From: Tridacna crocea
Taxonomy: Eukaryota > Mollusca > Bivalvia > Cardiida > Cardiidae
Direction of reading: 5' to 3'
Length of the DNA: 64,000 nucleotides
NCBI GenBank assembly: GCA_943736015.1
Contig: OX031060.1
Coordinates: 2,500,001 to 2,564,000 of the forward strand
Each line of letters starts with the position of its first letter. The stretch's first letter is position 1. Positions 5,390 to 62,179 of the stretch are shown here, in pieces. Made by a program: the position numbers and the translations under genes. The notes under the pieces were generated by a model. The model searched no databases. It was given only the letters and a program-made list of their open reading frames with translations, and had not been told where the DNA came from.

Positions 5390-5476
5390 ATGGCGGGCGA
5401 TTTGAGCGAATTTTTAAAACGTCATGTAGAAAGTTCGGTGAGATACCGGTCGACAATAGATTCCATCATCAAACAG
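5390..5476 (+). CDS. Gene 1, coding exon 1 (29 codons, ends phase 0)
   Basis: The start is the first ATG after the in-frame upstream region, in the context AACATGGCG. The exon encodes MAGDLSEFLKRHVES and then a basic helix ending SIIKQ. The donor is CAG|gttgag, which is weak. A stronger-looking gtgaga at 5438 is also phase 0 but would delete the helix that carries the family similarity, so the later donor is preferred. Confidence 0.75.
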
Positions 5477-8400
5477 GTTGAGTTATACTTTTGAATTAAT
5501 GAGAAGTCAATTGAACTTTTAATTTTTTATTGATAAGTGGAACATAATGTCTCTATGCTTCTGTGTCATTAGATTTCGCGATCTTAACTTCGTACCACTG
5601 TTTATTCCCACCCTTTTCCATACTCTGGGACTTTATTTACTCATTCCCACTGCCTATGCTAACTTGAGTATATACTCAGTGCTGTTTATTCCTTCAGTAG
5701 TCTATCGATCAGAGACATGAACAGTTGCAAGAGTTGAAACTTTCCTATTTACTTTTCATATGGAAAGGGTTCTTCCCTTTTCTGGGTCATTGTTCTGGTA
5801 TCAGGTGAACTCGTACCCTTGAGAACTCGTACCTTGGAGAACTCGTACCCCAATCTCAAGGGTACGAGTTCTCCAGAGAAGTCGTACCCTGGGTACGAGT
5901 TCTCTGGAGAAGTCGTACCCCACTAATAAAATACATGTATAATGATAGTTTACCAGCATGCTGTGAACTTTTATTTTTGGCAGTGGCTAGAGATATGGTA
6001 CCGTACCTCTAGCCCCGGAGTCTAAAGATACGGTACCGTATCTTTAGTCATTCTTATGATATAGGCTAGAGGTACGGTATTTTGTAGATACATGTAAGAA
6101 ATTATAAATTTACTTCAGTTTTGATTATTATGTTATTAGTATGTATTAGTAGTAATTGATCGGCATCAAAGGACAGAAACTCATCAAGTTGCAGTGTGCG
6201 ATTGTGCACTGATGAGCGAAAATAATAATTGCATTGATTATTAGGTGACCTTGATTACTTAACCCTGGGATTCTATATAAGATATGTATTATCCCTGCTT
6301 TACCCTTTCTCAAAAGACAAATTTTACAAACAATTTGTAAACAATTTAAATTTTGATGAAAAATGGTGGAAAATGGTCATGCAAAAGGGTAGAAAACACT
6401 GTTGGAAAATGAGAAATTAGCATTCTCTCTTTTTCCTACAGTGTTTTCAAAGGATTTGTACTGCATGTAGGAAAGCATTCAGTGGCTTAGAAAGAATATT
6501 GTGCCGAGTACTGGTTATAAAAATTCGAGGAAAGCATGAATAGGTGCACTGGCCGATGCAAAAGTACTGAAATATTGTTGGAAACGGCGTTAAACACCAT
6601 TCATTAAATCAAATTCCTAAATTTATTTACAACCATGTGCAGGCCTAGCCCCATAGCTCAGTCGGTATAGCGTACCGGAATTGAGAACAGGAGATCGCCG
6701 TTCGATCCACAGCTCGGCCAATAAACTTTCCGAGGATTGATGACAGTCATTGCAACAGGATTCATTTCTGTCTCACTGCTGTCCAATGTTTCGACGATAG
6801 TTATGTGGGAAAGCAGCCAGTGGCTTGGAAAGAATATTGTGCGGAGAACTGGTTAAAAGAACTCATTGTTCACATTATTTTTTGGCCTTAATGTTTTCAA
6901 TAAATATTCATATATAACTCATGCCGTAAAATTCTGCTTCTACCATACATAAGCAATAGCCCACACCAAATTTCAGTTTGAATCGTGTTTACCAGACCCG
7001 AACCTAAACATGCAACTCTATCCATCGCTCCCAACATAAGAGTAGATAAATAAATGAATAGATAAAATAACTTAATAAGTATAAATAGATGGATGGTAGA
7101 CAGACAGACAGACAGACAGACAGATAGATAGATAACCTTTGTTCTCTCACTCCTGTCCCTCTGGCTTTGAAATTCTTGCCACCATGAATACAGTATTTAA
7201 AGCGATATCCTGTAATACTTTATCCTTTCTTTTATTTTTGTTTGTACGTGCGGCTGGGCTTTTTGTATAGTCCTAGAATCCCTCTTGTAAAACTGCATAC
7301 TTTCTGCACTTTGATAGCAATTTATTGCGCTTTTAAATGTTTGAAAATCTTCAAATTTCTTCCCGACGTGAATACTATGAGCCATTTTGACCGTATGATA
7401 CAAAACTGGCTTGAAAGTGCTTTCAGAAAATTTTTCCGTGATTGAGTAATAGATTAATTATCAATTTCCGTGATTGAGTAATTGATTAATTATGTCGTTT
7501 TCCATAAATTAAATTCACCTAACTAATCAATGCAATTATTATTTTCGCGCATCGATGCAAACTCGCACACTGCAACAAGTTTCTGTCCTTTGATGTCGAG
7601 ATTGATACTAAGCCATACTAATAACGATAATAATCAAAACTGAAGTAAATTTATAATTTCTTACATGTATCTACAAAATACCGTACCTCTAGCCTATATC
7701 ATAAGAATGACTAAAGATACGGTACCGTATCTTTAGACTCCGGGGCTAGAGGTACGGTACCGTATCTCTAGCCATTTCTTTGATATAGGCTAGAGGTACG
7801 GTACCGTATCTCTAGCCACTGCCTTTATTTTTATGCCATTATTGTGATGTAGATGTGATAATTTCTTTTCTTGTACATGTGTTGAATAGACAAATTAAGT
7901 AACGAAACCTGTGTTTTCTCATTCAGTGTATGTTGTATTTGATGTAAATATGGTAAGGAAAACATTTATGAATGATAAATAAATTGTATTCAACTGAAAA
8001 ATCTTTAGTAGAATTAATGCTTGCTCTATTCAATTTTTCGGGTAGCCTTCACTTGCATTCAAGTTTTGAAGGTCACCGTTTTGAATTCATGTTTGATGTT
8101 GTTTTGTGTAAGAAAGGTCTAGGAATCAGTATTTGATTGGATTAGATATTTGTTAAATGGAAGGAGTTGATAAAATGAACACAGAATTAATCAAATTTTC
8201 ACACCTGGTGAAAAGGCAAATTTCCTGAACAAAGAAAGCAAGAAAGGTGTGATTTTCACAATGATCAAATTACTGTAACATAATTGCAACATTCAATATT
8301 GAACCCTTAATTCATTTAACGCTTGAATCGAAACAGTAGACCTGTAAAGAACAAGATCGATCAATATGCAAAAAATGCAGTCTGAGCTTGGATTTACACC

Positions 8401-11400
8401 ATCAAGATTCTCAGCCAAACCTTTCAGAAAAAAAATCTTTCCTGAATTTTAGTGAATTGTCGATGAAGTCCCCTGTATACTTTTGGCACCAAAGCACGTA
8501 GGGTAATGATTGGAAAAGTCAGTGAAATCATTTGTCCACAATGTTTCAGCAATACAAAAATGCCTCCGTAGAATCGCTAGTAAGTCGAAAATGTCATATA
8601 AGCCGTTTGAAGAAGCTTTCAAAATTGGTTGAAAAGCTGAGAAAACACGTGGAAAAAGGAGACCATGTTGGTTATTTGATTTTGCACCTTTTCCCACAAT
8701 GGTTACTTCTTCGGTGTGGTTGAAACTCGAGATCGTGAAGTAAACGTCTCAGAAAACATAGAAGAAGACATAGAAAATGAGAGAGAGAGAGAGAGAGAGC
8801 GAGAGAAAATGCAAATATCGCTATATGTGAACTCTTCAAAATTGTATATATCTGCATACAAAAAATTCATATTTGGTACAGACGTACTTATTTATCGGAC
8901 TGAAAGGGTGGAAAGAATTGTTGGAAAATGAGAAAATACTGCTTATATAAGCACCCTCCCCGTTTTTTTCCAACAACATTTTCAAAAGCTATCTCGCACA
9001 GGGTGATATTTAGCAACTCAGCACTATTTGCATCCATCAGGATTCAAAGAGCTAGATTTCTTCTTTTAATGTTACATTATAAAGAACCGGTTATAATCGT
9101 TTAATCCTTTTCCAACAATGAATATATAAGTCTTATCCCTCGTACAACATGTGCGATTGATTGGTAAAGGGTTAAGAGTCTTTTTGAAGAACTACACAGG
9201 TTTAAATGCTGGTAAATGGCAAGTGTGCACAATCATGTTTATAACACCCGATATGTGGCTTCATTGTACCCGACGCCTTTGACTTCTTAAAAAAAAAAAC
9301 TTGGCATACTCCATTAACGAACCTAAAAATATCTAAACAAGCTTTTTTTTTAAGAATAAAAACCTATCTTCGAATCATTAGATGAATCCAGATTATGTAG
9401 ATTTAACTGATAAGTTCATCTTTCTTGAATTTACCTGCCCATTTACCTTACTTCCTTTTCATTTTAATCCATGAAACACCCGGTAACAAAACTGATATTT
9501 TACTACAAATACCCGTTACCAATGCTTGATTATTATATTACTCATTTCACTAAAGATAAAATGAAAATCATCAATTCACCAAAATCTGAATGATATATAC
9601 AAATCTATCTCCAAAAATATCTAGGGTACGAGTTCTCCGGAGAACTCGTACCCAGGGTACGAGTTCTCCAGAGAACTCGTACCCTTCAGATTGGGGTACG
9701 AGTTCTCCAGAGTACGAGTTCTCCAGGGTACGAGTTCTCTAGCAACCATTGTTCTAGGTATACAGAGAATAGATCTACATATAAAAAAACGACAATTCCT
9801 ATCACAATAAAACCATATTTAAAAGAGTTTCATCGAAGTATGGAATACAGTATCAGCTGTATTAGTAATGTATTGTGTATTGCCAATTTGGTGCTGTTTT
9901 CTTTTTGCTTTTTTCCTAGCTTTTAGAAAGTCTCACTTTGTTCTAGCAACTGTGACAAAGTTTGAATTTGGCAGATTTTTTCACCGAAATATTTATAGAA
10001 CGAAAAAAAAATTTTTTTCCAGTATGAAGAAAAAGAGAATTTGAGAGAAGAGGAGCTGGAATCTGTGTTGGATTTGATGAAATTGCAAGTTTTAAAGGAC
10101 AAAAATGGTAAAAGTCTTATTTTTTTTCAAAAACACAGAAATTGAGAGGAACATAGTCATTTTACACTGACAGTGAAACAAGTTTATACAACATACATTG
10201 TAGTTTGACAATCTGGAAACTTAACCCTTTACTCCATAGATACTCATTTTAACACATTGCTTGTAGGAGCCTTTGGAAAACATTGTGGAAAAGGTGAAAT
10301 TGCTCGTGACGAGCAATTTCACCTTTTGTCACAATGTTTGCTTTGCTATCAAAAAGTGTCATTTACATATAACAAACGGTTTCATCCTTGCTATGATTTA
10401 GGGTCAATTAGAGATGCCATAGAAAATGCCTTTATCGGGTAATGGGTTAAACCCTTTATCACACAATCCCAACTTTTAACGACTCTGAGAAAGAAAGCCT
10501 TTGAAAACATTGTGGGAAAAGGAGAAAATGCTGGTAACCTGCATTTTCTCTTTTTCCCACAATTTTTTCTACCCTTTCCATATTAAATTTCAATTTTTGA
10601 TTCACATTTATTTTGTTGTCTGCAAATGCTTTCAATTTGGACTCGTCCAAAATGTTATCGTTTGATAAAGAGTTTACCCTTTACCACACAATCCCAACTT
10701 TTAACCCTTTACCCCATGAGGCATTTCTATGGTATCTCTAATTGACCGTAAATAACAGCAAGGATGAAAACTGTTTTTTATGTGTATATGACACCATTTA
10801 ATAGCATAGAAAACATTGCTCATCATGAGCAATTTCACCTTTTGCCACAATGTTTTCCAAAGGCTCCTATTAGCAATGCGTAGAAATGAGTATCTATGGA
10901 GGAAAGGGTTAAGGAGCCCAAGAAAGAAAGCTTTTGAAATGCTGATAATCATAATTTTTCTCCTTTTCCAACAGTGTTTCCTACCCTTCCCAAAACAAAT
11001 TTGTAAATATTTAGTCACATTTATCTTGTTCTCTGTAGCTAGTTTTAATTTGGTCAAATCCAAAATATTTTCGTTTGGTATGGTAAAGAGTTAACTCCTT
11101 ACTATGGTGAAGAGTTAACTCTTTACCACACAGTCCCGACTTTTAATTACCCTGAGAAAGAAACCTTTTGAAAACATTGTGGGAAAAGGAGAAAATGCTG
11201 GTTACCAACATTTTCTCCTTTTCCCACAATGTTTTCTACCCTTCCCAGAACAAATTTTCATTTTTGAGTCGAAATTATTTTGTTGTCTGCAAGTGATTTC
11301 AATTTGGACCAGTCTAAAGTTTTCTTGTGTGGTAAAGAGTGAAGCAGTATCCAATCCTTGATATAAGTTTCAAAGTTTCACCAAGCTTACCCGTGGATTT

Positions 11401-14400
11401 GAACACAAAACTTTCAAAGTGAGAGCTAAATCTCTACCCCTAAACCGCTGCCTCCCTCTTGTGAACAGAGAGGAAAAGTAGTTGACTAACAAGGACTGTG
11501 AATCTGGACTCCTTGGAGGAATAAAGAACACCTATACTATTACATTATTCCCATTATTTCATACCACTCACCTTAAATCTTTACTACACAAGAAATTTAT
11601 AGAGTTCTCAAAGTGAAGCTTCCAGGCATTTATAGATGACAAACTAAAAACGGCTCATGTGATTGAACTTGTTTTGATAAGGTTAGAAAACATTGTTGGA
11701 AAAGGAGATATACTGTTTGCCAGAATTTTCTACTTTGCCTCAATGTTTTCAAAAGATTTCTGTCTCGATATTGTTTAAAACTCAGGATTGTGTACTATGT
11801 TTCGGATGTTTGTTTTGCACACGACGTAAATGTATCGCCAAGTATCGATACAACAAGTAAGTATCGTGATATACTATCGCCAGCAAAAATATTATGATGC
11901 ACCGATGCATCGATGATATCGCCCCAGCTCTATTGTGTAGTAAAGGGTTTAGCCTTTCATTATGGCCAAGACCAGAATCTTGAACATTTGCTGAAGATTT
12001 AAGCCTTTACCATACAATTACTAATTTACAAGACCCTTAAGAAGAAAGCTTTGGAAAACATTGTGATAAAGTGTTTTGTGTAAAAGATTCTATGGTAAAC
12101 CAAATTTTATGAATCACTTCAAATTTGTTTTCTACATGTGCTTTTAAAGGTGGGTATTAAGCTTTTTTAAATCACACCAAATATAAAAATATATATATCA
12201 CTGAAATTTATATGAAAAAAACGATACGAATCATCATTAATTAAGAATCATAAAATTACGGAAAAATTTTTTTTGATGGTATTCCCTTAAAAGACTGCGT
12301 AGCCTCTTAAGCTATTTTTAGATTTCCTGCCAAAAATCGAAAAAGCATTGTGGGAATGTTATGTGACTGGCACATGACTAATGACGTTTAAATTCCATAA
12401 CATAACAAAGATGTAATTATTTTCCATAATGTCTTCTTCGGACACTATGTTTGAAGCTTCATCTTATGTTTCTGGTATGTAAATGAGCGAGTTGTTTATG
12501 TAAAAATAGACAGTGTTTCCCGTCGGTGTCCACACAGGCTGTAGTAAATATCTAATTTCTCTTGTTGTTGGATGGTTGTCGACAACTGGGATTTAATGAA
12601 TGAAAATTAAGAGGCTTTGGCAGTATAAGGATGATTTTTTTGTTCTTTTGTAAAGTTTTTGTCCCAAAGTCTGAATGGCCACCTTTAATATAAATGTGTC
12701 TATCATTTTGTTGTCTGATAAATCATAAAAGTGCAAAAATTTACTGTAATTTCAGGAGAGTTTGAAACATTCCCAAGGTTTGGAAAGTCTAGATTGACAA
12801 GATCGACCCGTCAGAGTAAGTCAAATGTTTTCTGTTTATTTTTTGTCAGCTTTTATCAGGAAGTGATTCAAGATTTTGTATCAAAATACATTTTTTTGTG
12901 TTTTTATCCGTTTATCACTCGAAACCTAGTTTACTCTTTGCAAAACGGCAAAATTTAAGACTTGTGCAAATCCAAAGAAATTATAGATCAGAGCTCCAGA
13001 TAGAGGAAGTGATTTTGATTTCAAAATTAGACATATTAATATTCTCCGCTAAACCCTATGTTGCAGGTACTCATTAGAATTGTCTCATCGAGACAATTCT
13101 AATGAGTACCCACACCTTAGGGTTTGGAAGAGAAATACTAGATTTAGAATACCTTCACTCCCTCTTATCTGGAGCTCTGATAGATGACAAATTCATTGCA
13201 ACTCAAAAATGATTTCTTTCTTTTGAACAGAAGAACTTGTTTTGAAAAGGAGAAAGTATTTTCTCCTTTTCATACAATGCTTCCAAAAACTTTCATCTAT
13301 GTTGTCGTTTAATCTTGGGATTATTTTGTAAAGGGTTAGATGGCTATTGGAAGGAAGTCTCTTGAAAACCTTGAGGCGCTAATGGAGAAAATACAAAGTA
13401 ACTTCTTTTCCTACAATGTTTTTTAACTCTTTACTCTATAGATACTCATTTCTACACATTGCTTGTAGGAACCTTTGGAAAACATTGTGGCAAAAGGTGA
13501 AATTGCTCGTGACGAGCAATTTCACCTTTTGTCACAATGTTTTCTATGCTATCAAAAGGTGTCATATACACATTAGAAATGGCTTTATCCTTGATGTTAT
13601 TTTGGGTCAATTAGAGATACAATAGAAATACCTTATGGGGTAAAGGGTTAACCAATTAAAAGCAAGTTTCATCATTTGTGTCATGCTTGATAAATGGTCT
13701 GCATATGCCTTGAATTTGGACAAGACTTCAATTTTGTCCTATTGTACAAAGTTAAGTTGAGTGTGTAAGAAGTGCTCCAGGGTTGTATTTGTGATTGTTC
13801 TGTGTCTATTTTCTATCATGTGTTTTCTGATGTGTTTTATCAACCTTTATCTTACATTTACTTGATGGGCTACTTTTTCAATCTGGTTGCCTATAAGGCT
13901 TTACAAGAATGTTTGTTGCCATGTTGTGGTGAAATCTTGAACAAATGTAGAAAAAGATTATGTTTGGCCAGAAAATGGGTCCATAGGCAAATCCTAGGGG
14001 GAGTGATTTTAATTTCAAAATTGAAAATATTAATAATTCTCCACTAAATCCTATGTTATGGATACTCATTAGAATCGTCTCATTGAGATGATTCTAATGA
14101 GTACCCACAACATAGGGTTTGGAAGAGAGATAATGAATGTAGAAGACTATCACTCCCTTTTATCTGGATGTCTGATTGTAGATGTCACATTTTCAGGACA
14201 ATGCTTTCGAGAACATGTTCAGAGTGTTTGTCCTGGTTATATTTCCGATGAGTTCTAAATTGCTGATGGTAAAATACTATTTATAATTCTACATTTTACA
14301 GGTCATGCTGGAGTGGAAACAGGGAATACTCTTGATTCAAACCAGAATGTGAGTTTACACTTAACCCATTACCATACAAAGTGAACCCTAATTTTAAATG

Positions 14401-17400
14401 GCCCTGAGAAAGAAGACCTTTGAAAACATTGTGGAAAAAGGAGAAAATGCTTGTAACCAGCATTTTCTTCTTTTTCCATAATGTTTTCAAACCTTTCAGA
14501 GAAACGAAGCCATTAACTGAGCTTCATTAGATGCTGTGTCTGCACATACACTCAATTTGGACCAGTCTATAGTATAGTCATGTGGCAGAGTTAAGCTAGT
14601 ACCACACATTACAACAACTAACAATAATGTGTAGATTCTTAGCTCTTAGAGCACTGACTAATGAAAAGGAACTAGGAAGTTTTCATTTAGAAAGAAAAAA
14701 AAGCTAAAATATTAGGAAATCAGTGTTGTTATTTCCAGAATGTGTAATAAAGTAGCATAAATGTGTTTCCTAAAGATGCTTTCAATTTGGAAATTTTTAC
14801 CAAATGACGAAATTTTGACCTCTCCACATTGAAAGAATTTGCAAGCGATGAATCGATTGTGATTCAAAAGTTGTGATTTGTCCTTCTTCAGGTAGAAAAC
14901 ATTATGGGAAAAAGAGAAAATGATTGTTACCAGCATTTTCTGCTTTTCTCAATTTTTTATCAAAAGCCTTTTGAATAGGGTTGTTAAAAGGCAGGATTGT
15001 GTTGTAAAGGGTTAAAGCTGAGTTGAGACATAAGAAATGTTGACAATTGAAGAAAATTTTTCTCCAGAAAACAAACACACAAGTCATATTCCAAATGAAA
15101 CAAGATGCAAAAGTATCAAATTACTCCTTTTCATAGAGGAATCAACTGATAACAAGATGCCTAAATTTGTTCTGCTGTGTAAGTTTAATGTTACCTTCAA
15201 GTGGATATTAGAAACCCAAAGGTTGCTATTTTAAAGTTAATTTTTTGGGAGAAATTTCTTGTTCTTGGTCAGTGTAGATCAAAGATCAGACTGCTGATTT
15301 TTTGCAGTCTGATCTTGATCTGCATTGTCCACAACAGGTCAAAAAGAAGCTCAAAGGTTGCCATTTTAAAGTTAATTTTTTGGGAGAAATATCTCCTTCT
15401 TGAGATCAAAGATCAGACTGCACCTTTTATGCAGTCTGATCTTGGTCAACATTGTCTGCAAAAGGTCAATGAGTCGCAATCAGCAGCCTACGGGTTTAGA
15501 TCATTCAAAGATTTTTTTGTTAAATTTCACTTCTAGGTCACTTCATCATTTCACAGTGAATACTTTCCAGAGGTAGAGTTTGAAGCACTCAAAGGTAATT
15601 TCCATATTGTCTAGATTTCTATTTGATTTTGAGCCATGCTCTGACAAAGGGGACTTAATGCAACTCAGTTACACATGATACAAACCCAAGTCATAAAATA
15701 CTTATTGACTGATAGGAGCCTATTTTTACAATAACCAACTTAACCAATTACCACACAATCCCTACTTTTGACGCCCCTGAGAAAGTAGCCTTTTGAAAAC
15801 ACTGTGGGAAAAGGAGAAAATGCTGGTAACCAGCATTTTCTCCTTTTCCCACAGTGTTTTCTATCCTTCCCAGAACAAACTTCAATTTTACAGTTACCTT
15901 TATTTTGTCGTCTGCAAATGCTTTCAATTTGAACCAGTCTAAAATTTTCTCGTTTGGTAAAGAGTTAATCGTGAGGCAGATTGATCCTATGAAAAACAGA
16001 AAATTGAAGAAAAGTGAAAAGTTTCGACCTAAGTCTGTCTGTGCGTAATGCGCAGGCTGACCTGAGTCAATACTTTTCGCAGATGCATTAAACCCCTTTC
16101 CACAGAACATGGCTCATTTATTTTGAATCCACTTACTGTAAACTTAACCCTTTACTCCATAGATACTCATTTCTACGCATTGCTTCATTTTGCTTGTATG
16201 AGCCTTTGGAAAACATTGTGTCAAAAGGTGAAATTGCTCATGAGGAGCAATTTCACCTTCTGTCACAATGTTTTCTATAGATGCTATCAAAAGGTGTCAT
16301 ATACACATAAGAAATGGCTTCATCCTTGCTGTTATTTAGGGTCAATTAGAGATACAATAGAAATGCCTTATGGGGTAAAGGGTTAAAGGCTAAGGGATCA
16401 GGGGTGGAGTGGAAATACAGAGTTTCCCTTGACTTGAAACCTTTTCAGGATGCGATCAAATTTAAAAATGAATGGTTGGAATAGATTTGTTTGGTGTGGA
16501 TGCAACCATTACCAAGAAGACTACGAATTAGGCATTTCTTGGTAAAGTTACGATCACAGATTTATGCATGCATGGCAGCAAATTCTCTTTGGTTATCAAA
16601 CAGATTAAGATGTTCATCCCAAAATAGAATTGTTGGCGTATAGGTCTTGTTATATTGTTAATACTTGACTTACACTAATTCTTTGGTAAGTTATGCCTTT
16701 CCCATATAAGCCTTGGCTTTTACAGCACTGAGGTTGAAGGCATTTGAAAACACTATGGAAAAAGGAGAAGATGCTCATAACTAGCATTTTCTCCATTTTC
16801 CACAGTGTTTTCTTCCCTAACAGATGAAAATACCACCTTTTTAACTACTCTAATTTTGTCTGCAAATTCTTTGAATTTCAATAGACCGAAATTACCTCAT
16901 CTTGTAAAGAGTTAAGATAAAAAAGACATTCTTAAGAGTAGTATTGGGACAACAATTCCACTGTATCAGATCTACAAAGTGGTGATTGTACCAAATTCTT
17001 AAGGACAGATGCTCATGAACACAGTTGCATTTGTTGCTTAATCTAGCATGTTTGATTTGAATCGTCATATAGCATAAAAAGTTAACGTGATTTGAATTGT
17101 CATATTGCTTAAAAAGTTAGGCCTATGTGGACAAGATTTATTTAAGTTTAACTCCTTACCACACAATGCCAACTTTAAATGACCATTAGGAAGAAGTCTT
17201 TTGAAAACATTGTAGGAAAAGGAGAAAATGCTGGTTACCAGCATTTTCTCCTTTTCCCACAATGTTTTTTACTCAGTCAATGGACAGTTTCATCATTTGA
17301 GCCGTATTGAAATTGTTGTCTGCAAATGCTTTGAATTTGGATGGGTCTAACATTTTGTCGTGAGGTAAAGAGTTAAATGGTACATGTATTTTAAATATGT

Positions 17401-20400
17401 CATGATTTGCATTCTTAACTTCCTTTGGTAGGGAATTCAAATAAGTTATCACAGCTGGCAAAAATGAAGTGCTGTACAAGCTAGTTCTGCCAGCAATTTT
17501 ATTTCAAATGATTTGGCCTAGGAAAGATAAAGTTAGGATAGAATATGAACTGTGATATGGTTTAAAACTCTTTACCGGGTGACAAAATTAAGATTTGAAC
17601 ACATTTCAAGCATTTGCAGATGTGTTGTAGGTTATATGCTCGTAAAAATGATAAGATTGGTAATTGAAAGGTAAGAATACACTGTCGGGAGAAGACATAC
17701 ATGTACTTCACCTTCTCCCAAAATGTATAAAACAACTTTTTCTGTGTCATTAAACCATGGCAATTTTATTAACCCATTACCACACAATCCCTACTTTTGA
17801 CGGCCCTAAGAAAGAAGCCTTTTGAAAACACTGTAGGAAAAGGAGAAAATGCTGGTAACCAGCATTTTCTCCTTTTCCCAGTGTTTTCTACCCTTCCCAG
17901 AACAAATTTAAATTTTTCATTCACCTTTATTTTGTCGTCTGCAAATGCTTTCAATTTGAACCAGTCTAAAATTTTGTCGTGTGGTAAAGAGTTAAAAGGT
18001 TGAGCTAGATACAAAGATCAGAGCTCCAGATTAGAGGGAGTGATGGTATTCTAAATCCTTTATTTCTCTTTCAAACCTTATATTGTGGGTACTCATTAGT
18101 ATCGTCTCAATGAGACGATTCTAATGAGTACCCATGACATAGGGTTAAGTGGAGGATAATTAATGTTTTAAATTTTGAAATCAAAATCACTCCCTCTATC
18201 TGGAGCTCTGACAGATGTATTTATCAGTAGGGCAATTATTACGAAAGTTAGATGTATTTTTTTTGACAGACATAAGTCACCATGTGGCCAGTTTTATTGA
18301 TGATGGGGATCCAGAGCCGAGTGATGCTGATACATTAAGCTCATATTCGACATGCTCTGACGAGAGTGTATACAGTGATTGTTTAGACGAATCTCCCATA
18401 CTAGAACAGACATCAGTATGTGAACAGGCATCCAGTCAGGATGAACTGTATCTGGGTGAGGCATTTGTCTTCTTTTCTTTTGTTCTTTTCTTATGTCCTT
18501 GGGTTTACCAAATAATGTATAATTATAACTTTTTATGCCACTGCACCTATAGATTTTGAGTATGTTGTTGGAAAAAGAGCAATTGCTTTAGAAAGAATTG
18601 TTTGTAATCAACATTTTCCTTTGTCCCTAACATACCTGAAATTTTTGTTCTTTGGTATATAGTTATCTCTGGAGTTGTATTGTTTAGACAAAAAATTTCT
18701 ATTGACAACTTTTGCTATCTCTTTCAATACGGATGATACTTCAGACTTTGGATTTGTTGTGCGTTATGAAAAGGAAAACCTGTAACAGAAAGGCATATAA
18801 TCCTAAATATATTTTTAACACATTTATGTAGCTTTTTTCGGTATGGAATTTAAGTATTCACATTTAACCCTTTACCCCATAAGGCATTTCTTTGGTATCT
18901 CTAATTGACTCTTAAGTAACAACAAAGATGAAGTCATATTTTAAGTATATATTACACCTTTTTATAGCATAGAAAATATTGTGACAAAAGGTGAAATTGC
19001 TCATCATGAGCAATTTCACCTTTTGCCACAATATTTTTCAAAGGCTCATACAAGCAATGTGTAGAAATGAGTATCTATGGAGTAAAGGGTTAATAAGTAT
19101 TTGCTGCACATTTCAGTGTTTTAATAAGCTTGAGAAAGAAGCCTTCTGAAAATCAAATAGCTGCAGCTGAGCATTGGCTGTGGCATATGTTATCCTTGTT
19201 TAGTTTTAGTTTATTATATCGTTTCATATACATGTATTAGACACCGACATGAATGAGGCAGAAAGAGAGAAAGATGAGGTAGATCATGAGGGACAACTTG
19301 TCAGACCAGATCTTGTATGTGATGGACATGGGTCAGGAATGAACAGCAGGAAACCCAAGGTTGGTTTATGTAATGATGCACAGCATGTTTAACTCTTTAC
19401 CATATGACAAAATTTTTGGACTGGACCAAATTCAAAGCATCTGCAGATAACAAATTATATCTTTTTCTCCATTTCCCTCAATGTTTTCAAAAGGCTTCTT
19501 CCCCAGGGTCGTTAAAAGTCATCATTGTGTGGTAAAGGGTTTATTTGTCTGCCACAAATGTTTTCATTTCAATGTTGACTTGTCTGTAAAATTTTGGGAT
19601 CTAGCATAAAGCAGGTTGTAGCTGAAGTGCTCCTTTACAAGGTATCTCTTGGAGCCAGGGTATTTGCAAGTAATCCAGATTTATGGATAAGTGCTGGTTT
19701 GCTGATATGTAATGCTATTAAATCGGCTTAACTTAGTCTTCTATAAAACCTCTAGAAGTGATAATGATTTGAAAAATAGATAGTTCATTGAAACTTGTAA
19801 CAGATAATTAACCCCTTAACAGACGACAAAATTTTAGCCTTGTCCAAATTGAATGCATTTGCAGACGACAATTACAGTGTGGCTCAAATGGTGCAATTAT
19901 TTATTGTTAGGATAGAAAACATTGTGGGAAAAGGAGAAAATCCTGGTTACCAGCATTTTCTCCTTTTCCCACAATGTTTTCAAAAGGCTTCTTTCCAAGG
20001 GTCGTTGTAAGGCGTCACTGTGTGGGAAAGGTTAAAAAAATGTAAAAGATTATTAATTTTATTGCATATTATAGGTTAAAGGTGTGCAATTTGACGAGAC
20101 ATTTACAGTTGAGGAGTCCAATTTCTCCCCAAGGACTGAAAGAAATCCTCCATTAGGAAGGCCATTGAGAAAAATTCAGACAGAGTTCATCCCCTTCACT
20201 GAAATAACAGAAAGGCAAAGTGGTATAAATCAACCTATCATGTTTAGATGTGATGATGATGATGGCGGTTTCAAGGGTAATCATGACAGACAAATGTACA
20301 ATGGAACTGATAGAAGTATGTCAAAGCATATTTCTAAGGTGTCCTCCTCAAGAAACTGTAGAAGTTACGAAAAAGATGAAATTTGGCAACAATCTATGGA

Positions 20401-23400
20401 AGGAAGAACAAATGATGAAGATCTAGTTACGAAACCCACCTTACAAACTGCAAAAAACTCTTTACGCAAACATGAATTTATTTCCAAGAAAAGACATGTG
20501 TTCCTTCGTCCAAAGGTTGAAAAAAAGTTTACTGATAAAAATCCAGAATTTCCATTTTCAAGAAATTTATTTCTGTCTCCGAGGCTGACATCCCTTGAAT
20601 CTGTGCAAAAAGAACAAGCAAATATGACCCCAACAGACCATAAATATTGTGATTTAACTGATTCTTCAAGAAATTCTCCCAGAAACTCTGCTAGTAAAAG
20701 TAGTAAAAGTCTGAATAAGTCAAATTCAAAGCACACTGATTCAGGTTTCAGTACATTTCATGAGGAGAACTCAAACTTGGAAAATAATAGTGGGAAAGAA
20801 GTCAGCATTCTCAGTATGAAAAATTTACAAGTTTTCAATGAATCATTTATGGAGAATACAAGCTTGTTAAATGTAACTGATGGACTAAAATCTCCAGACA
20901 AACAGGCTGCCGCAGAAACGAATCAGAAAATCAGTTGCTGGTTAAATGAGATCAATGCTGAAAAGCAAGCAAAGACATCCGATAGAAAAAATTCCTCAAC
21001 AGAGAGAATTCATAGAAAGAACTCAGTTGGAAATTTAAGACTGTCTAAAGAAGAGATGCAGCTCATTGAACCTAGAAATGAAGTTGAGTTTGGTGAAGTT
21101 GAACTACATAAGGTACCATTTTCTCCTGGGAAAGTTAAACAGCATAAAATATCATCTTCAAGCACTTGTTTATTGAGATCTCCTGAAGAGGAGTTGAACA
21201 GGTCTATCGAGAAGCAGAGGTCTCGTCAAACAATGCTGAGCAGAATTCCTAAAGTGATACATGATAGACCAGTTATCAAGAAATGTGTGCGTAAACTAAA
21301 TATTGCAGAAACATTTCAGCAGATGAAAACTTTTAATGCTGGAGATTTGTTGATGATGGATAGCCATCAGCATAATTTAAAACATTGCCATGGCCCTGAT
21401 CAAGTTAAAGACACAAAAATTGTGGCAGGAAAAAGGTGTATTGGTGATGTTGATGATGATTGTGAAATAGACCATCATTTAAATCATGCAAAGCCTCATG
21501 ATGCAACTGACTTTCGGCTTCCTAGCAAGTCACGTAGAGTTCAGAGTAGTAAGAAAAACTGTCCAGCAGAACAACATCAGAGAACTTATTTTCCCCAAAC
21601 CTTTGATCAAGAAGTTAAAGAAGATGTTTTGTGTAGTCCAATCAACTGTATAGTAAGACAAAATGATGAGAAAAGATTACCTTTTTCAGCAAAAGATACC
21701 TTGAATGTAAAAGAGAATATGCCCACATATGGTAGTCCATCCCAAACAGGAAAAACATCGGAGATTTCAAGCTATGCAGAGCAATTCAACCAACTGAAGT
21801 CACCAAGTGCTCGAAAGATTATTCAAAAGTATTCAGACTCTCGACAGAGAGTGGATCACTCTCTTTCAAATACTTGTAAGAGAGGCATACTTTTGAATGA
21901 AGGACAGAATGAATTTGATATTTCTACAGTCAATTGTGATAAAACATATGATTACAAAGAAAAACTGAAAAAAGGAAAAGGACAATATCATGAGTCTCTT
22001 CATCAATACCCTGAATATAGGAACTCTTTTGATGAGTCTGAGGATGAGTTCGATATAAGAGAACCTTATGATGGATACAATACATTCCACATTGATAAAA
22101 AACAGCATTACAGAGACTCATATTCCAATATAGGTAAAGTTCAAATGAAAGCTAGCAATAAATATATTGCGGGTGAACAAAGATTTGAAAATAACGACAA
22201 ACAGTATCGTATAGAAAGATCACAAAATTATACAGAAAGACCGCGACATTTTGAGAAAAACAGACCATGTGGTAGAGATAAGTGGTATCATGGTCCAACC
22301 GGGTACCAAGAAGATGAATCAGAGAGTGTACATGATACTGAAGAGTATGTAGTTGATGGGGATGGACATCTCACATTTCAACAGCGATCTTGCAGCGAGG
22401 GTTTGCCTTCAGGGTTGTTGGTTTATGAAGACAGAAAAGTCCCAAATAAACAAATTGGTCTGAGTTATAAAGAACAAAGATATATTTCTGATGAGTCAAT
22501 AAAGAATGCAGAAAGAGATTATGTTGAGAAGGATAGCAGTATGTATGGTGCTCAAGATATGGTACAAGACTTTAGATCACCTCACAGGCTAAATGTTGCT
22601 AGTAGCAAAAACAGAAAATCACCAAAATCATACATTCCTCCGTCAAACCAATGGTTTGTAAACACAGGCAGTAATTCTGTGCAAATGTTGAACCATGTAT
22701 CTACTGTTGGACAATCTGGTCGAAAAAATCAGTCATATCATAAAGAGTTTTTGGTGTCAGTTGATAATGGTGTAAATGATGATGATGAAAGAAGAGTACA
22801 AGAGGAGGAGCGTGAAAATGATGGAGAATATTTTTTGCCACAAAGAAGAAGTAATAGGAGAAATGAAGTTATAAAATTTGTAGAAAATGAATGTCAGGAA
22901 TTGGGGTATAACAGGGACAAATTGAAAGACTGTCTACAGCAGTCTGAACAAGCTGTTGAAAGATTTCTTGAGTTACGTCACATGTTGGATGATGCAAGAA
23001 AGGAACGTCATGGTTCAGACAGTATTAGACAGGAATATCATGGGTTGGGCAATGTAAGAAAAGGTCCTGTTCCTGTGATTCAAGGTAAGGAACTAAATAG
23101 GCCCAGTTCAGAAAACTATGATAGAGGGAAGGAAAGACAGAACAAATTGAATGAAATTCATGGAGTAGAAAATGAACAGATAAGAAATCAAAGGAGCAAA
23201 GGTGTTTTAATGACACCAGAATCTCATAAACACATAAAGAAAGATGGTAGAGAGAGTTTTGATACATCATCAGTCAACAAAGAACATAGATTTGATGCTT
23301 TTTCTCCAAGTGTTTCGATGGCAAAGTTACAACTCAACACTCCCACAGGTAATAGAAAAAGAACCTCACAGGATTCTGTGAGAAGTTATACCTCATTATC

Positions 23401-24361
23401 AGGTGAATCGGGAACACCTAATTCACTGCATAAGGGATCTGAATCAACCTGTAAAACTGATCGGAATAAAGAGTTTCAGATGTTCAGTCACAGAAATGAT
23501 TTGTCTCCAGCATCAAGTAGAAACAGACTTTCTCAAAAAATTTCAAAGAGGTATCAATCCCAAGTATTAGCAAATTTAAACCTGTTACCAGGAAGAGAAA
23601 TAGAAGAATATGACCTTGGTTCATACAGGGAGGTCAGGGGTCAAAGTCAAAAGTTGAAAAGTTATTGGGAGAAGGATTCTGACTTTTGTTTAGATAAGGA
23701 AGATTTTGACTGTGAAGGTTTTATTAGTTTGGACAAACTCTCAAAATCTACTGAAAAGTTTAGAATTAAATCAGGTCAGTTTTTCAAAACTGAAGCTGAT
23801 AAAGATTTAAGTAAAAGCTATATGGATATGATTGAGGATTTGGATGAAATTGATCAAGCAAGCAGTGATGATCAACATGAAACTCTAAATGATACAGTTA
23901 AACCGTACAAACAGTATTATCAGAAAGTGGTGAAGAAAACTGATCAATGTGAAAGTGAGAAGGAAAACACTATGAAATATTTCAATAGTTCTAAAGTGAA
24001 CAATGTGGATACTGGTATGAGAGATAGTGTACTATCTAGGAAAACTAAAACTGTGTTGGCTAGAAAATATCCTACCACACAGTCTGAAGTAGCCAAGGCT
24101 AAAAACATAGGGCTTTCAAGTGGTACCTCAAATTCTGTTGTGAAAAATCTACAAAAAGTTACAAGAACTGATCATCAAGTTCCACTGAAAGATTTAAGAG
24201 GTCTGTCAGGTCAAAGTGGTCTCCAAGCCAATTTCAAGAACTTTTTCCAGAGCACTCCAGTGAAAACTGGATCCCTGTTACAATTGAATGAAACAATGTC
24301 AACAATATTTGGGAGTGACGGAACAGAAAAGCAAGAAGAGGATGAAATTATCCTTATATGA
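5390..24361 (+). CDS. Candidate Scm3/HJURP-like CENP-A chaperone (gene 1), spliced, 8 coding exons
   Basis: Join 5390-5476, 10023-10107, 12756-12815, 14302-14348, 15537-15594, 18270-18455, 19241-19359 and 20075-24361; 4929 nt, 1642 residues. All introns are GT..AG and every phase fits. Seen: residues 18-30 read RYRSTIDSIIKQY, then an acidic linker, then VLDLMKLQVLKDKNG at 44-58 and EFETFPRF at 59-66. Established knowledge: Scm3/HJURP CENP-A chaperones carry a short N-terminal domain with a basic helix ending in an (I/L)I-x-K-Y-type motif, an acidic or polar linker, and a hydrophobic D/T-L-type strand ending near a Gly. The order and spacing match; identity is low. The remainder is probably disordered, with at least a dozen SP/TP sites and KEN motifs at residues 33-35, 760-762 and 1510-1512, as expected of a CDK/APC-controlled protein. 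Residues 1145-1187 form a predicted helical, UBA-like segment. The C-terminus is acidic and hydrophobic (EEDEIILI). It could instead be an unrelated mitotic or centrosomal protein. The gene itself is near certain; the family call is tentative. Confidence 0.85.
6299..6450 (-). repeat. Decayed pB-1 MITE
   Basis: It has a TTTACCCTTTCTC start and a diverged hairpin (GAAAACACTGTTGGAAAATG to TACAGTGTTTTC). No right terminus is found. Confidence 0.5.
6471..6620 (+). mobile_element. SINE-1, 5'-truncated copy
   Basis: It contains only the body and tail: GTGGCTTAGAAAGAAT, GTACTGGTTATAAAAA, ATAGGTGCACTGGCCG, then GGCGTTAAACACCATTCATT. The tail matches the copies at 24871-25173 and 40392-41080. Confidence 0.7.
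6646..6905 (+). mobile_element. SINE-1, tRNA-derived head plus body
   Basis: The head has RNA polymerase III-type boxes A (TAGCTCAGTCGGTATAG) and B (GTTCGATCC) and ends in CTCGGCCA. The body has CCGAGGATTGATGACAGTC, GTGGGAAAGCAGCCAGTGG and GAGAACTGGTTAAAAG. It is not a functional tRNA, because the stems do not close and the body continues past the acceptor end. The layout and tail recall mollusc V-type SINEs. Confidence 0.75.
7096..7134 (+). repeat. GACA/GATA microsatellite
   Basis: Tandem GACA units change into GATA units. Confidence 0.9.
8784..8808 (+). repeat. GA microsatellite
   Basis: A GA dinucleotide run with one GC interruption. Confidence 0.85.
8905..8990. repeat. Decayed pB-type hairpin
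   Basis: The imperfect stem pairs GAATTGTTGGAAAATGAG with TTTTTTCCAACAACATTTTC. A separate TGGTAAAGGGTTAAG end at 9160-9174 may belong to the same or another decayed copy. Confidence 0.4.
10023..10107 (+). CDS. Gene 1, coding exon 2 (phase 0 in, phase 1 out)
   Basis: The acceptor is TTTTTTCCAG and the donor G|gtaaaag. The exon encodes YEEKENLREEELESV, then LDLMKLQVLKDKN. The acidic linker and hydrophobic strand here are the core of the Scm3-like similarity. KEN at residues 33-35 may be incidental. Confidence 0.85.
10221..10450 (+). mobile_element. pB-2 MITE (plus), full length
   Basis: It has TTAA at both ends, a CCCTTTACTCCATAGATACTC left end, and the hairpin core GAAATTGCTCGTGACGAGCA. Its right TTAA is shared with the pB-1 copy that starts at 10447. 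Confidence 0.85.
10447..10676 (+). mobile_element. pB-1 MITE (plus)
   Basis: It reads ACCCTTTATCACACAATCCC, then ACTTTTAACGACTCTGAG, then the core hairpin (one arm has lost one C), and ends in GATAAAGAGTTTA. Confidence 0.8.
10673..11094 (+). mobile_element. pB-1 MITE split by a pB-2 insertion
   Basis: The left piece is 10673-10704 (CCCTTTACCACACAATCCC, then AACTTTTAA). The right piece is 10909-11094 (AAGGAGCCCAAGAAAG through a decayed hairpin to GGTAAAGAGTTAA). The internal TTAA of ACTTTTAACGGCCC served as the target for the pB-2 element in between. Confidence 0.8.
10701..10912 (-). mobile_element. pB-2 MITE (minus), nested in pB-1
   Basis: It is flanked on both sides by TTAA, which interrupts the pB-1 consensus exactly at its internal TTAA. 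This is direct evidence for TTAA target duplication. One hairpin arm has lost about 20 bp (GAAAACATTGCTCATCATGAG). Confidence 0.85.
11115..11342 (+). mobile_element. pB-1 MITE (plus)
   Basis: TTAACTCTTTACCACACAG opens the element. The hairpin is near-perfect around CTGGTTACCAACA. The right end GTGGTAAAGAGTGAA has lost its exact TTAA. Confidence 0.8.
11573..11951 (+). repeat. Decayed pB-1 MITE with extra sequence
   Basis: It has TTAAATCTTTACTACACAAG on the left, a degenerate hairpin (GAAAACATTGTTGGAAAAGG to CAATGTTTTC), and TAGTAAAGGGTTTA on the right. About 130 bp of unrelated sequence, including TATCGATAC-like runs, is inserted or diverged. Confidence 0.4.
12756..12815 (+). CDS. Gene 1, coding exon 3 (phase 1 to phase 1)
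   Basis: The acceptor is AATTTCAG and the donor A|gtaagt. The exon encodes EFETFPRFGKSRLTRSTRQ, a short basic tail following the Scm3-like strand. Confidence 0.85.
12987..13182. mobile_element. Hairpin MITE family 3 (AGAGCTCCAGATAGAGG ends), copy 1
   Basis: The terminal inverted repeats are AGAGCTCCAGATAGAGG and its complement. The centre is a long stem GTACTCATTAGAATTGTCTC with complement. Two more copies lie in introns of the same gene, at 13995-14176 and 18019-18212. Confidence 0.8.
13333..13755 (+). mobile_element. Decayed pB-1 MITE split by a pB-2 insertion
   Basis: The left piece is 13333-13426 (GGAAGGAAGTCTCTTGAAAAC to CCTACAATGTTTTTTAA). The right piece is 13648-13755 (AGTTTCATCATTTG, GCATATGCCTTGAATTTGG, then CAAAGTTAA). 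A pB-2 copy sits between them at a TTAA. Confidence 0.65.
13423..13651 (+). mobile_element. pB-2 MITE (plus), nested in a decayed pB-1
   Basis: It has TTAA at both ends, the ACTCTATAGATACTC left end and the ATGGGGTAAAGGG right end. The core stem is GTGAAATTGCTCGTGACGAG. Confidence 0.8.
13995..14176. mobile_element. Hairpin MITE family 3, copy 2
   Basis: The central stem GGATACTCATTAGAATCGTC and its complement are clear. The outer ends are decayed (GGGGGAGTGATTTTAATTTC on the left, CACTCCCTTTTATCTGGATG on the right). Confidence 0.7.
14302..14348 (+). CDS. Gene 1, coding exon 4 (phase 1 in, phase 0 out)
   Basis: The acceptor is ATTTTACAG and the donor AAT|gtgagt. It encodes SHAGVETGNTLDSNQN (first residue split with exon 3). 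The sequence is polar and not recognisable as a domain. Confidence 0.8.
14361..14594 (+). mobile_element. pB-1 MITE (plus), starts 12 bp after the exon 4 donor
   Basis: It has TTAA at both ends, CCCATTACCATACAAAG on the left, and the hairpin GAAAACATTGTGGAAAAAGG around TTGTAACCAGCA. It sits almost on the splice donor of gene 1. Confidence 0.8.
14795..15015 (-). mobile_element. pB-1 MITE (minus), decayed left end
   Basis: TTTTTACCAAATGACG opens the element and GTTGTAAAGGGTTAA closes it. The stem is mutated (CATTATGGGAAAAAGAG against CTTTTCTCAATTTTTT). Confidence 0.65.
15212..15490. repeat. Hairpin family 4 (GATCAGACTGCA), two tandem copies
   Basis: Two units of about 140 bp, 15212-15349 and 15350-15490, each carry AAAGGTTGC(T/C)ATTTTAAAG, TTTTTTGGGAGAAAT and a GATCAGACTGC...GCAGTCTGATCTTG hairpin. 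They lie immediately before exon 5. Confidence 0.75.
15537..15594 (+). CDS. Gene 1, coding exon 5 (phase 0 in, phase 1 out)
   Basis: The acceptor is TTCACTTCTAG and the donor AAAG|gtaatt. It encodes VTSSFHSEYFPEVEFEALK, aromatic and acidic, with no family match recognised. Confidence 0.8.
15740..15968 (+). mobile_element. pB-1 MITE (plus), full length and young-looking
   Basis: It has TTAA at both ends, a perfect hairpin GAAAACACTGTGGGAAAAGG around GCTGGTAACCAGC, and GTCGTCTGCAAATGCTTTC in the right arm. Confidence 0.9.
16021..16110 (-). repeat. CAGGCTGACCTGAGTC hairpin, partial copy
   Basis: Imperfect arms AAGTTTCGACCTAAGTCTG and GCAGGCTGACCTGAGTCAAT are followed by TTTTCGCAGATGCATTAAAC. 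It belongs to the family at 30560 and 58158. Confidence 0.65.
16144..16386 (+). mobile_element. pB-2 MITE (plus), full length
   Basis: It has TTAA at both ends. Small duplications lengthen both arms relative to the consensus (CATTTTGCTTG at 16186-16196 and TAGATGC at 16276-16282). The core is GAAATTGCTCATGAGGAGCA. Confidence 0.85.
16688..16915 (+). mobile_element. pB-1 MITE (plus)
   Basis: It has a decayed left end (TTATGCCTTTCCCATATAAG), the hairpin CATTTGAAAACACTATGG with complement, and a right end TGTAAAGAGTTAA. Confidence 0.75.
17148..17376 (+). mobile_element. pB-1 MITE (plus), full length
   Basis: It has TTAA at both ends, CTCCTTACCACACAATGCC on the left and GTCGTGAGGTAAAGAG on the right, with a near-perfect core hairpin. 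Confidence 0.85.
17564..17772 (-). repeat. Decayed pB-1 MITE
   Basis: It keeps AACTCTTTACCGGGTGACAAA, TTCAAGCATTTGCAGA and a worn hairpin (CTGTCGGGAGAAG against CCTTCTCCCAAAATG). It abuts the next copy at a shared TTAA. Confidence 0.5.
17769..17995 (+). mobile_element. pB-1 MITE (plus), full length
   Basis: It has TTAA at both ends, CCCATTACCACACAATCCC and ACTTTTGACGGCCCTAAG on the left, and GTCGTGTGGTAAAGAG on the right. Three bases are missing from one hairpin arm. Confidence 0.9.
18019..18212. mobile_element. Hairpin MITE family 3, copy 3
   Basis: The ends AGAGCTCCAGATTAGAGGGA and CCCTCTATCTGGAGCTCT are clear. The central stem is GGGTACTCATTAGTATCGTC with complement. Confidence 0.8.
18270..18455 (+). 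CDS. Gene 1, coding exon 6 (phase 1 to phase 1)
   Basis: The acceptor is TTTTTTTTGACAG and the donor CTGG|gtgagg. It encodes an acidic Ser/Asp/Glu-rich segment beginning DISHHVASFIDDGDPEPSD and containing YSTCSDESVYSDCLDESP. Confidence 0.85.
18864..19093 (-). mobile_element. pB-2 MITE (minus), full length
   Basis: It has TTAA at both ends, CCCTTTACCCCATAAGGC on the left and CTATGGAGTAAAGGG on the right. The core is GAAATTGCTCATCATGAGCA. Confidence 0.9.
19241..19359 (+). CDS. Gene 1, coding exon 7 (phase 1 in, phase 0 out)
   Basis: The acceptor is CATGTATTAG and the donor AAG|gttggt (weak). It encodes DTDMNEAEREKDEVDHEGQ and then a basic end NSRKPK. Charged, no recognised domain. Confidence 0.8.
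19389..19543 (-). mobile_element. pB-1 MITE (minus), internal deletion
   Basis: It runs TTAACTCTTTACCATATGAC to GTGGTAAAGGGTTTA. The left hairpin arm is deleted, leaving CTCAATGTTTTCAAAAGGC. Confidence 0.75.
19808..20035 (-). mobile_element. pB-1 MITE (minus), ends 39 bp before exon 8
   Basis: It has TTAA at both ends and a perfect core hairpin around CCTGGTTACCAGCA. Its position next to the branch-point and polypyrimidine zone of the last intron makes it a possible influence on splicing. Confidence 0.85.
20075..24361 (+). CDS. Gene 1, last coding exon (exon 8), 1428 codons plus TGA
   Basis: The acceptor is GCATATTATAG. The open frame runs 4.29 kb to TGA at 24359-24361, far longer than chance in this AT-rich DNA. 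The chain is rich in Ser, Lys, Asn, Asp and Glu, with many SP/TP sites. Candidate ordered pieces are KKCVRKLNIAETFQQMKTF near residues 616-634 and the helical segment starting EVIKFVENECQELGYNRDK at about 1145. KEN motifs lie at 760-762 and 1510-1512. No enzymatic domain is seen. Confidence 0.95.
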   Translation, partial: VKGVQFDETFTVEESNFSPRTERNPPLGRPLRKIQTEFIPFTEITERQSGINQPIMFRCDDDDGGFKGNHDRQMYNGTDRSMSKHISKVSSSRNCRSYEKDEIWQQSMEGRTNDEDLVTKPTLQTAKNSLRKHEFISKKRHVFLRPKVEKKFTDKNPEFPFSRNLFLSPRLTSLESVQKEQANMTPTDHKYCDLTDSSRNSPRNSASKSSKSLNKSNSKHTDSGFSTFHEENSNLENNSGKEVSILSMKNLQVFNESFMENTSLLNVTDGLKSPDKQAAAETNQKISCWLNEINAEKQAKTSDRKNSSTERIHRKNSVGNLRLSKEEMQLIEPRNEVEFGEVELHKVPFSPGKVKQHKISSSSTCLLRSPEEELNRSIEKQRSRQTMLSRIPKVIHDRPVIKKCVRKLNIAETFQQMKTFNAGDLLMMDSHQHNLKHCHGPDQVKDTKIVAGKRCIGDVDDDCEIDHHLNHAKPHDATDFRLPSKSRRVQSSKKNCPAEQHQRTYFPQTFDQEVKEDVLCSPINCIVRQNDEKRLPFSAKDTLNVKENMPTYGSPSQTGKTSEISSYAEQFNQLKSPSARKIIQKYSDSRQRVDHSLSNTCKRGILLNEGQNEFDISTVNCDKTYDYKEKLKKGKGQYHESLHQYPEYRNSFDESEDEFDIREPYDGYNTFHIDKKQHYRDSYSNIGKVQMKASNKYIAGEQRFENNDKQYRIERSQNYTERPRHFEKNRPCGRDKWYHGPTGYQEDESESVHDTEEYVVDGDGHLTFQQRSCSEGLPSGLLVYEDRKVPNKQIGLSYKEQRYISDESIKNAERDYVEKDSSMYGAQDMVQDFRSPHRLNVASSKNRKSPKSYIPPSNQWFVNTGSNSVQMLNHVSTVGQSGRKNQSYHKEFLVSVDNGVNDDDERRVQEEERENDGEYFLPQRRSNRRNEVIKFVENECQELGYNRDKLKDCLQQSEQAVERFLELRHMLDDARKERHGSDSIRQEYHGLGNVRKGPVPVIQGKELNRPSSENYDRGKERQNKLNEIHGVENEQIRNQRSKGVLMTPESHKHIKKDGRESFDTSSVNKEHRFDAFSPSVSMAKLQLNTPTGNRKRTSQDSVRSYTSLSGESGTPNSLHKGSESTCKTDRNKEFQMFSHRNDLSPASSRNRLSQKISKRYQSQVLANLNLLPGREIEEYDLGSYREVRGQSQKLKSYWEKDSDFCLDKEDFDCEGFISLDKLSKSTEKFRIKSGQFFKTEADKDLSKSYMDMIEDLDEIDQASSDDQHETLNDTVKPYKQYYQKVVKKTDQCESEKENTMKYFNSSKVNNVDTGMRDSVLSRKTKTVLARKYPTTQSEVAKAKNIGLSSGTSNSVVKNLQKVTRTDHQVPLKDLRGLSGQSGLQANFKNFFQSTPVKTGSLLQLNETMSTIFGSDGTEKQEEDEIILI

Positions 24362-42799: not shown

Positions 42800-43030
42800 A
42801 GGGAAATTACCCTCCCTACAAAATGACCCACGGGTCATTTCACTACGTAGAGGAATTACCCCGGTCATTATTCTACGTGGAGAAATGACGCCCAGAGGGT
42901 TGTTTCTCTACGTGGAATAATGCCCCGGGTCATTTCTTTATGTAGTGAAATGACCCATGGGTCATTTGTCTACGTTGTGAAATGACCCATGGGTCATTTG
43001 TAGGGGAGGGTCATTTCTCTGCATTACACC
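42800..43030. mobile_element. Short-unit palindrome array, AATGACCCATGGGTCATT, with terminal repeats
   Basis: The ends GGTGTAATGCAGGGAAAT and ATTTCTCTGCATTACACC are inverted. The interior alternates CTACGTAGAG- or CTACGTGGA-type palindromes with GACCCATGGGTC, GACCCACGGGTC and CCCCGGGTC blocks. A second copy is at 49995-50222. Confidence 0.8.
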
Positions 43031-61751: not shown

Positions 61752-62179
61752 GTACGTGAAATAAGATCCGTCTTTTACGAAGTATACTACAAGTGTTTGC
61801 GCGCATCCTACTTTGCATGTATTTTTGTCGTAGATACTGAATCAAACGTACACCTATGTATTTTTGCACATAATGGTAATACTATTGGTGCACTGAAAGT
61901 ACTACTTCGGGTAGTACTGTTGAAGAGAGAGAAAATAAAAGGATCTTTGAACTATCATCGTGAAATAATTAAAATGCAACTTTTTCAGAAACGATCTCGG
62001 ATCTGTCACTGTGAAATAATCAAAAGGCAACTTTTTCAGAAACGAGCACGGTGATCCATGCACATCTTTTTTTACTGTAATTTCCTAGAGACATGATGAG
62101 CTTTGTATGTGCAAAGTCTTAAAAAAATCTGTCCGTTAGAGAATATTGTAGTATACGTCGTTACACCGAATTAATATAA

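Follow-up and report, generated by a model that had tools for sequence, protein, structure and literature searches.

The window analysed here is a stretch of 64,000 nucleotides from the bivalve Tridacna crocea (GenBank assembly GCA_943736015.1, contig OX031060.1, positions 2,500,001 to 2,564,000 of the forward strand), and it contains gene 1, a gene of eight exons on the plus strand at 5390-24361, whose translation and splice sites give a product of 1,642 amino acids. A first-pass annotation had proposed that gene 1 encodes a chaperone of the Scm3/HJURP type, the family that determines where CENP-A is placed and hence the position of the centromere. Our analysis leaves this identity plausible and unproven, and we lean towards it slightly; this and the likelihoods that we attach to the rival explanations are judgements rather than computed values. 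The exons of gene 1 are as follows.

5390..5476, + strand, exon 1: residues 1-29 from the start codon on, including the putative helix for CENP-A binding as far as IIKQ
10023..10107, + strand, exon 2: residues 30-57, with the Y of the QY pair, the acidic linker and the putative strand VLDLMKLQVLKDKN
12756..12815, + strand, exon 3: from G58 on, GEFETFPRFGKSRLTRSTRQ
14302..14348, + strand, exon 4: from translation and splice sites
15537..15594, + strand, exon 5: from translation and splice sites
18270..18455, + strand, exon 6: acidic and serine-rich
19241..19359, + strand, exon 7: from translation and splice sites
20075..24361, + strand, exon 8 (last): open without interruption for 1,428 codons, polar, with a TGA stop at 24359-24361

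All seven introns are of the GT..AG type and the reading frame is kept across every junction, which bears out the earlier claim that the splice phases support the join; the eight junctions counted in the first-pass annotation are corrected to seven, between eight exons. The ATG has an in-frame stop upstream at 5354 and lies in the context AACATGG, with A at -3 and G at +4. When codon statistics trained on exon 8 were applied to 200,000 random joins of three intron pieces with the lengths of exons 1-3, only 9 reached the coding score of exons 1-3, and 2,633 of the joins were open. Gene 1 is thus well supported by its sequence as a real, long animal protein gene. Its product contains 19 SP/TP sites against a shuffle mean of 10.1 (0.26% of 5,000 shuffles reach 19) and three KEN motifs against a mean of 0.79 (4.5% of 5,000 shuffles reach three), so that its description as SP/TP-rich with KEN motifs stands; exon 8 holds 18 of the 19 sites and two of the three motifs.

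The N-terminal peptides on which the proposal was built are found in exons 1-3 in the order originally given. The three exons, joined in phase at GT..AG junctions, read in turn MAGDLSEFLKRHVESSVRYRSTIDSIIKQ, YEEKENLREEELESVLDLMKLQVLKDKN and GEFETFPRFGKSRLTRSTRQ, and the order along the protein is R18-Y30 (RYRSTIDSIIKQY), an acidic linker of 13 residues, V44-G58 (VLDLMKLQVLKDKNG) and E59-F63. The CENP-A-binding helix of Scm3 and HJURP is recognised by a sequence pattern that ends in K-Y, with a conservative change permitted at K; residues 16-30 match this pattern, having hydrophobic residues every 2-4 positions and ending in Q-Y rather than K-Y. A second IIxKY motif occurs at residues 781-800 of the product, within exon 8 (YAEQFNQLKSPSARKIIQKY).

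Human HJURP (PDB 3R45; PF10384) shares with gene 1 the arrangement aromatic-x3-hydrophobic-x2-hydrophobic-I-x-K/Q-Y, as judged by eye and in part by hhalign, followed by an acidic linker, a hydrophobic strand-like stretch and a long remainder. Unlike human HJURP, gene 1 has Q for K before Y, a linker of 13 residues instead of 8 and one additional residue before G, and it lacks TLTY. With yeast Scm3 (PDB 2L5A, 2YFV) it has in common the II-x2-Y end of the helix and a strand region resembling DL....V..D.NG, which hhalign aligned in part. It differs from the yeast proteins in its longer linker and in a residue inserted between D and NG. Yeast Scm3 proteins are also much shorter.

The premise of the first-pass annotation, that homologues are difficult to detect beyond vertebrates and fungi, has been overtaken by the work of Hollis and colleagues (Science Advances, July 2026, PMC13322267), who describe Scm3/HJURP orthologues in most of the animal lineages that they studied and name candidates in the snail Biomphalaria (KAI8798300.1), the annelid Capitella (ELT94853.1) and the fluke Schistosoma (TNN07270.1). 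According to their description, the animal orthologues have little in common beyond the scm3 domain, in deuterostomes certain conservative substitutions are found at the K of K-Y, and the Drosophila CENP-A chaperone CAL1 has an scm3 domain that has lost the K-Y consensus. Initial matches were taken without a strict cut-off and the accepted candidates include weak E-values (for example 0.77, 0.99 and 0.46), but a candidate was retained only if HHpred was positive, the AlphaFold complex was convincing and the reciprocal search gave a match. By that description the product of gene 1 fits the animal proteins: it is like them in the N-terminal position of the domain, in its hydrophobic spacing, in a K-like residue followed by Y, and in its polar remainder. 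Since no strict initial cut-off was set there, we do not treat the PF10384 gathering score as defining.

The evidence that most directly favours a chaperone comes from Pfam Scm3 (PF10384). For reference, in plain scans human HJURP scores 39.2 bits and an Scm3 consensus without a linker reaches 81.3. Because HMMER filters drop weak matches whereas the match of a carrier passes them, residues 1-77 of the query were joined through a Gly-Ser linker to residues 1-80 of human HJURP. The query then gave 47.2 bits and a second matching stretch, against 38.4 bits for the carrier with its linker alone, and this sub-significant match is reproduced by none of 17 decoys on the same carrier, which all score 36.7-40.1 bits with one stretch each. 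Among the decoys, one reversed sequence and seven shuffles score 36.7-39.5 bits, and eight real-protein segments (six from named proteins, two taken from elsewhere in the gene 1 product) score 36.8-40.1 bits at a stretch threshold of 2.5. The segment with IIQKY, residues 758-834, gave 39.6 bits at a stricter threshold of 0.6; because this segment stayed near the decoys, our claim is kept at the N-terminus and not moved to residues 738-854. By varying the threshold, the E-value of the second stretch in the query could be bracketed between 0.6 and 2.5 for 24,736 models, or roughly 2.4e-5 to 1e-4 for one model, which is suggestive and not significant. A related effect is seen with DUF7203 (PF23833), a family of unknown role that weakly matches residues 17-56 of human HJURP (15.6 bits): with the query attached it rises to 18.2 bits, compared with 13.3-15.9 bits in the 17 decoys. 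DUF7203 may be a divergent scm3 family.

The gain over the decoys is reproduced with residues 1-42 alone. On a carrier made of the Scm3 consensus, the whole N-terminus scores 85.0 bits, residues 1-42 score 85.3, residues 30-77 score 79.4 and the reversed N-terminus scores 77.9, where the constructs differ in length and the consensus alone (81.3) was scored without a linker. The Scm3 signal therefore lies almost wholly in the half that carries the helix and Q-Y. A small profile of four sequences, namely human HJURP, two yeast proteins and the consensus, was aligned by hand for a local HMM and for hhalign; a MAFFT alignment was set aside because it separated human HJURP from the yeast proteins by a long gap. 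Against these four sequences hhalign aligned helix and then strand in order, with five linker residues inserted, recovering a helix-like stretch that ends in I-I-x-Q-Y, the linker, and VLDLMKLQV opposite the Scm3 strand. The score of 16.6 (p 0.008) was reached by 2 of 400 shuffles. The order of helix, I-I-x-Q-Y, linker and strand proposed in the first-pass annotation is thus recovered, with an hhalign probability of 4.9% and little or no Pfam gain from the strand half.

Several of our results weigh against a chaperone, and some of them favour the alternative that gene 1 encodes a fast-evolving, largely polar protein of the cell cycle, spindle or cilia. Such a protein would belong to a family not yet described, the likeness of its N-terminal helix to Scm3 would be fortuitous, and the helix would serve in a coiled coil or in binding a partner unrelated to CENP-A. 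The prior odds of any single gene being the chaperone are small, and genomes contain tens of thousands of genes, so that at a per-model chance of about 1e-4 a few chance matches are expected. A plain Pfam scan of the N-terminus reports no match to PF10384, whose gathering score is 24.3 bits, and the second stretch on the carrier falls below significance at library scale. That match is carried by the helix half: the 79.4 bits of the strand half are 1.5 above a single longer decoy and below the consensus alone, so that in Pfam the contribution of the strand is slight or nil, no more than about 1.5 bits. In addition, the K of the K-Y pair is replaced by Q. Three unrelated Pfam families overlap the same residues, Herpes_UL6 (E 0.047, residues 22-112), CT0912-like_C (E 0.083, residues 4-69) and DUF1759 (E 0.081, residues 15-51); the first-pass annotation had named a better match to an unrelated family as a ground for rejecting its proposal, and numerically these E-values are better than that for Scm3, while all three are far below their own cut-offs. 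With the four-sequence HMM the query scores 5.2 bits, which 100 of 20,000 shuffles equalled or exceeded (16,769 were reported with a score), and three overlapping windows around the second IIQKY (residues 738-854) score 6.8-6.9 bits, the best of 64 windows. The hhalign probability mentioned above is low, and residues 758-834 score 16.7 there against 16.6 for the N-terminus. When residues 1-93 were compared with PDB by phmmer, the 29 sequences returned at E <= 10 included no Scm3 or HJURP chain and were headed by RNA polymerase alpha (E 0.62). Reciprocal retrieval of Scm3/HJURP proteins was thus not obtained in a single-sequence phmmer search of PDB, a search unlike the iterated ones used for the reciprocal test in PMC13322267, and partly for this reason we do not file gene 1 as an established HJURP. 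The identity proposed in the first-pass annotation is thus partly supported: Pfam Scm3 rises above all decoys, but no match was significant and no Scm3 or HJURP protein appeared among the PDB matches.

Chance resemblance is a serious contender in our judgement, with a probability that is considerable and still short of even. What speaks against it is the absence of the Pfam Scm3 gain from all 17 decoys, eight real-protein segments included, and the fact that the match sits at the N-terminus and is followed by a strand-like stretch and NG in the expected order. The odds for a chaperone are improved by the location of the match at the N-terminus, by the correctly ordered strand-like stretch and by a polar body rich in SP/TP sites. 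A histone-binding helix with another role, DAXX-like or as a general H3-H4 chaperone away from the centromere, appears improbable. Human HJURP itself weakly matches the histone-binding domain of DAXX (16 bits), so such helices do cross-match; attaching the query, however, leaves DAXX at 14.2 bits, no higher than the 15.4 of the carrier by itself, and it is Scm3 that is raised instead. Least probable of all, and hardly to be expected, is an error in the gene model by which exons 1-3 would be separate from the long last exon. The model was built from sequence alone and intron 1 spans 4.5 kb with nested inverted repeats, but the seven junctions are GT..AG and consistent in phase, and the coding score of exons 1-3 is matched by so few random joins.

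If gene 1 does encode an Scm3/HJURP-type chaperone, we infer that it would act as follows. The N-terminal helix, which ends at residues 16-30 (S-V-R-Y-R-S-T-I-D-S-I-I-K-Q-Y), would run along CenH3 alpha-2 and carry Q29-Y30 where the K-Y pair would be expected. The acidic linker, with 13 residues where human HJURP has 8, would connect it to a strand (V44-V52) that could pair with loop 1 of CenH3 and mask the CenH3-H4 dimer. The remainder of the protein, long and polar with many SP/TP sites and three KEN motifs, may be disordered and could couple delivery to the centromere to the cell cycle. We suggest more tentatively, with somewhat less than even confidence, that this would be a CENP-A chaperone in a novel form, having Q-Y, a linker longer by five residues than that of human HJURP and a cell-cycle-regulated body of 1,642 residues; in such a form the altered linker and the Q may have co-evolved with the targeting domain of the animal's own CenH3. 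No description of a form with Q-Y, a longer linker and a 1,642-residue body was found in the literature searched, bivalve-directed searches included. Scm3/HJURP evolves so fast that it was long believed absent from many animals, and gene 1, if correctly read, would be a new member of a family already known across animals. The gain would be incremental rather than conceptual because snail, annelid and fluke candidates are already reported in PMC13322267. The candidate nevertheless provides a specific gene for experiments with the CenH3 of the same animal and, if true, a data point on the drift of the K-Y pair and of the linker.

Searches beyond the N-terminus were carried out as well. PF10384 was run over the whole genome (1.05 Gb, 31 contigs) at E 0.001 and at E <= 10 without a match, with two candidates scored, and likewise without a match in its 14 control genomes. 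Because the domain is split by introns in gene 1, this result is weak evidence against a rival gene and speaks only against one with the domain in a single exon. PF03226 (Yippee-Mis18) gave one match in the genome, which from its appearance we take to be a Yippee gene. At E <= 10, exon 8 showed neither of the vertebrate HJURP regions HJURP_mid and HJURP_C, in a search whose filters drop weak matches and which had no positive control. A scan of viral contigs for relatives gave five pattern matches and no relative.

Several repeats and neighbouring features were also observed. Intron 1 contains, at 5796-9748, two nested inverted-repeat elements, the outer with arms at 5796-5920 and 9624-9748 (89% complementary) and the inner with arms at 5984-6131 and 7627-7774 (99% complementary). 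Short palindromic units abound in the arms, GGGTACGAGTTCTCC..GAACTCGTACCC and GAGGTACGGTACCGTA among them, and the elements resemble non-autonomous transposons whose terminal repeats are palindromic. Another short palindromic repeat, around GAGAAAATGCTGGTWACCAGCATTTTCTC, has 13 exact-pattern copies in the window (for example at 15814, 17222, 17843, 25561, 33772 and 45842), often beside AACATTGTGGGAAAAGGAGAAA (ten times), and represents an abundant small inverted-repeat element that is present in the introns of gene 1 too. A related palindromic repeat, GTGAAATTGCTC..GAGCAATTTCAC, occurs in six copies, and two tandem arrays at 42821-42999 and 50007-50183 are built of a palindromic unit of 32-33 bp, AAATGACCCAYGGGTCATTTCTCTACGTAGAG. 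At 60216-60467 the sequence resembles by eye the helix-turn-helix of a mariner-type transposase, with Pfam HTH_32 at 15.4 bits, below its cut-off. An open stretch at 61526-61759 encodes a Sushi/CCP domain (Pfam E 4e-12); upstream of it another, at 57825-57995, reads by eye as signal-peptide-like and then Thr/Pro-rich, with no Pfam match, and the two perhaps belong to one gene. Just to the right of the window (L004 6312-6815, minus strand) lies an open frame in which an OTU-like motif, SPDGDCFFRAALSQL, was recognised by eye.

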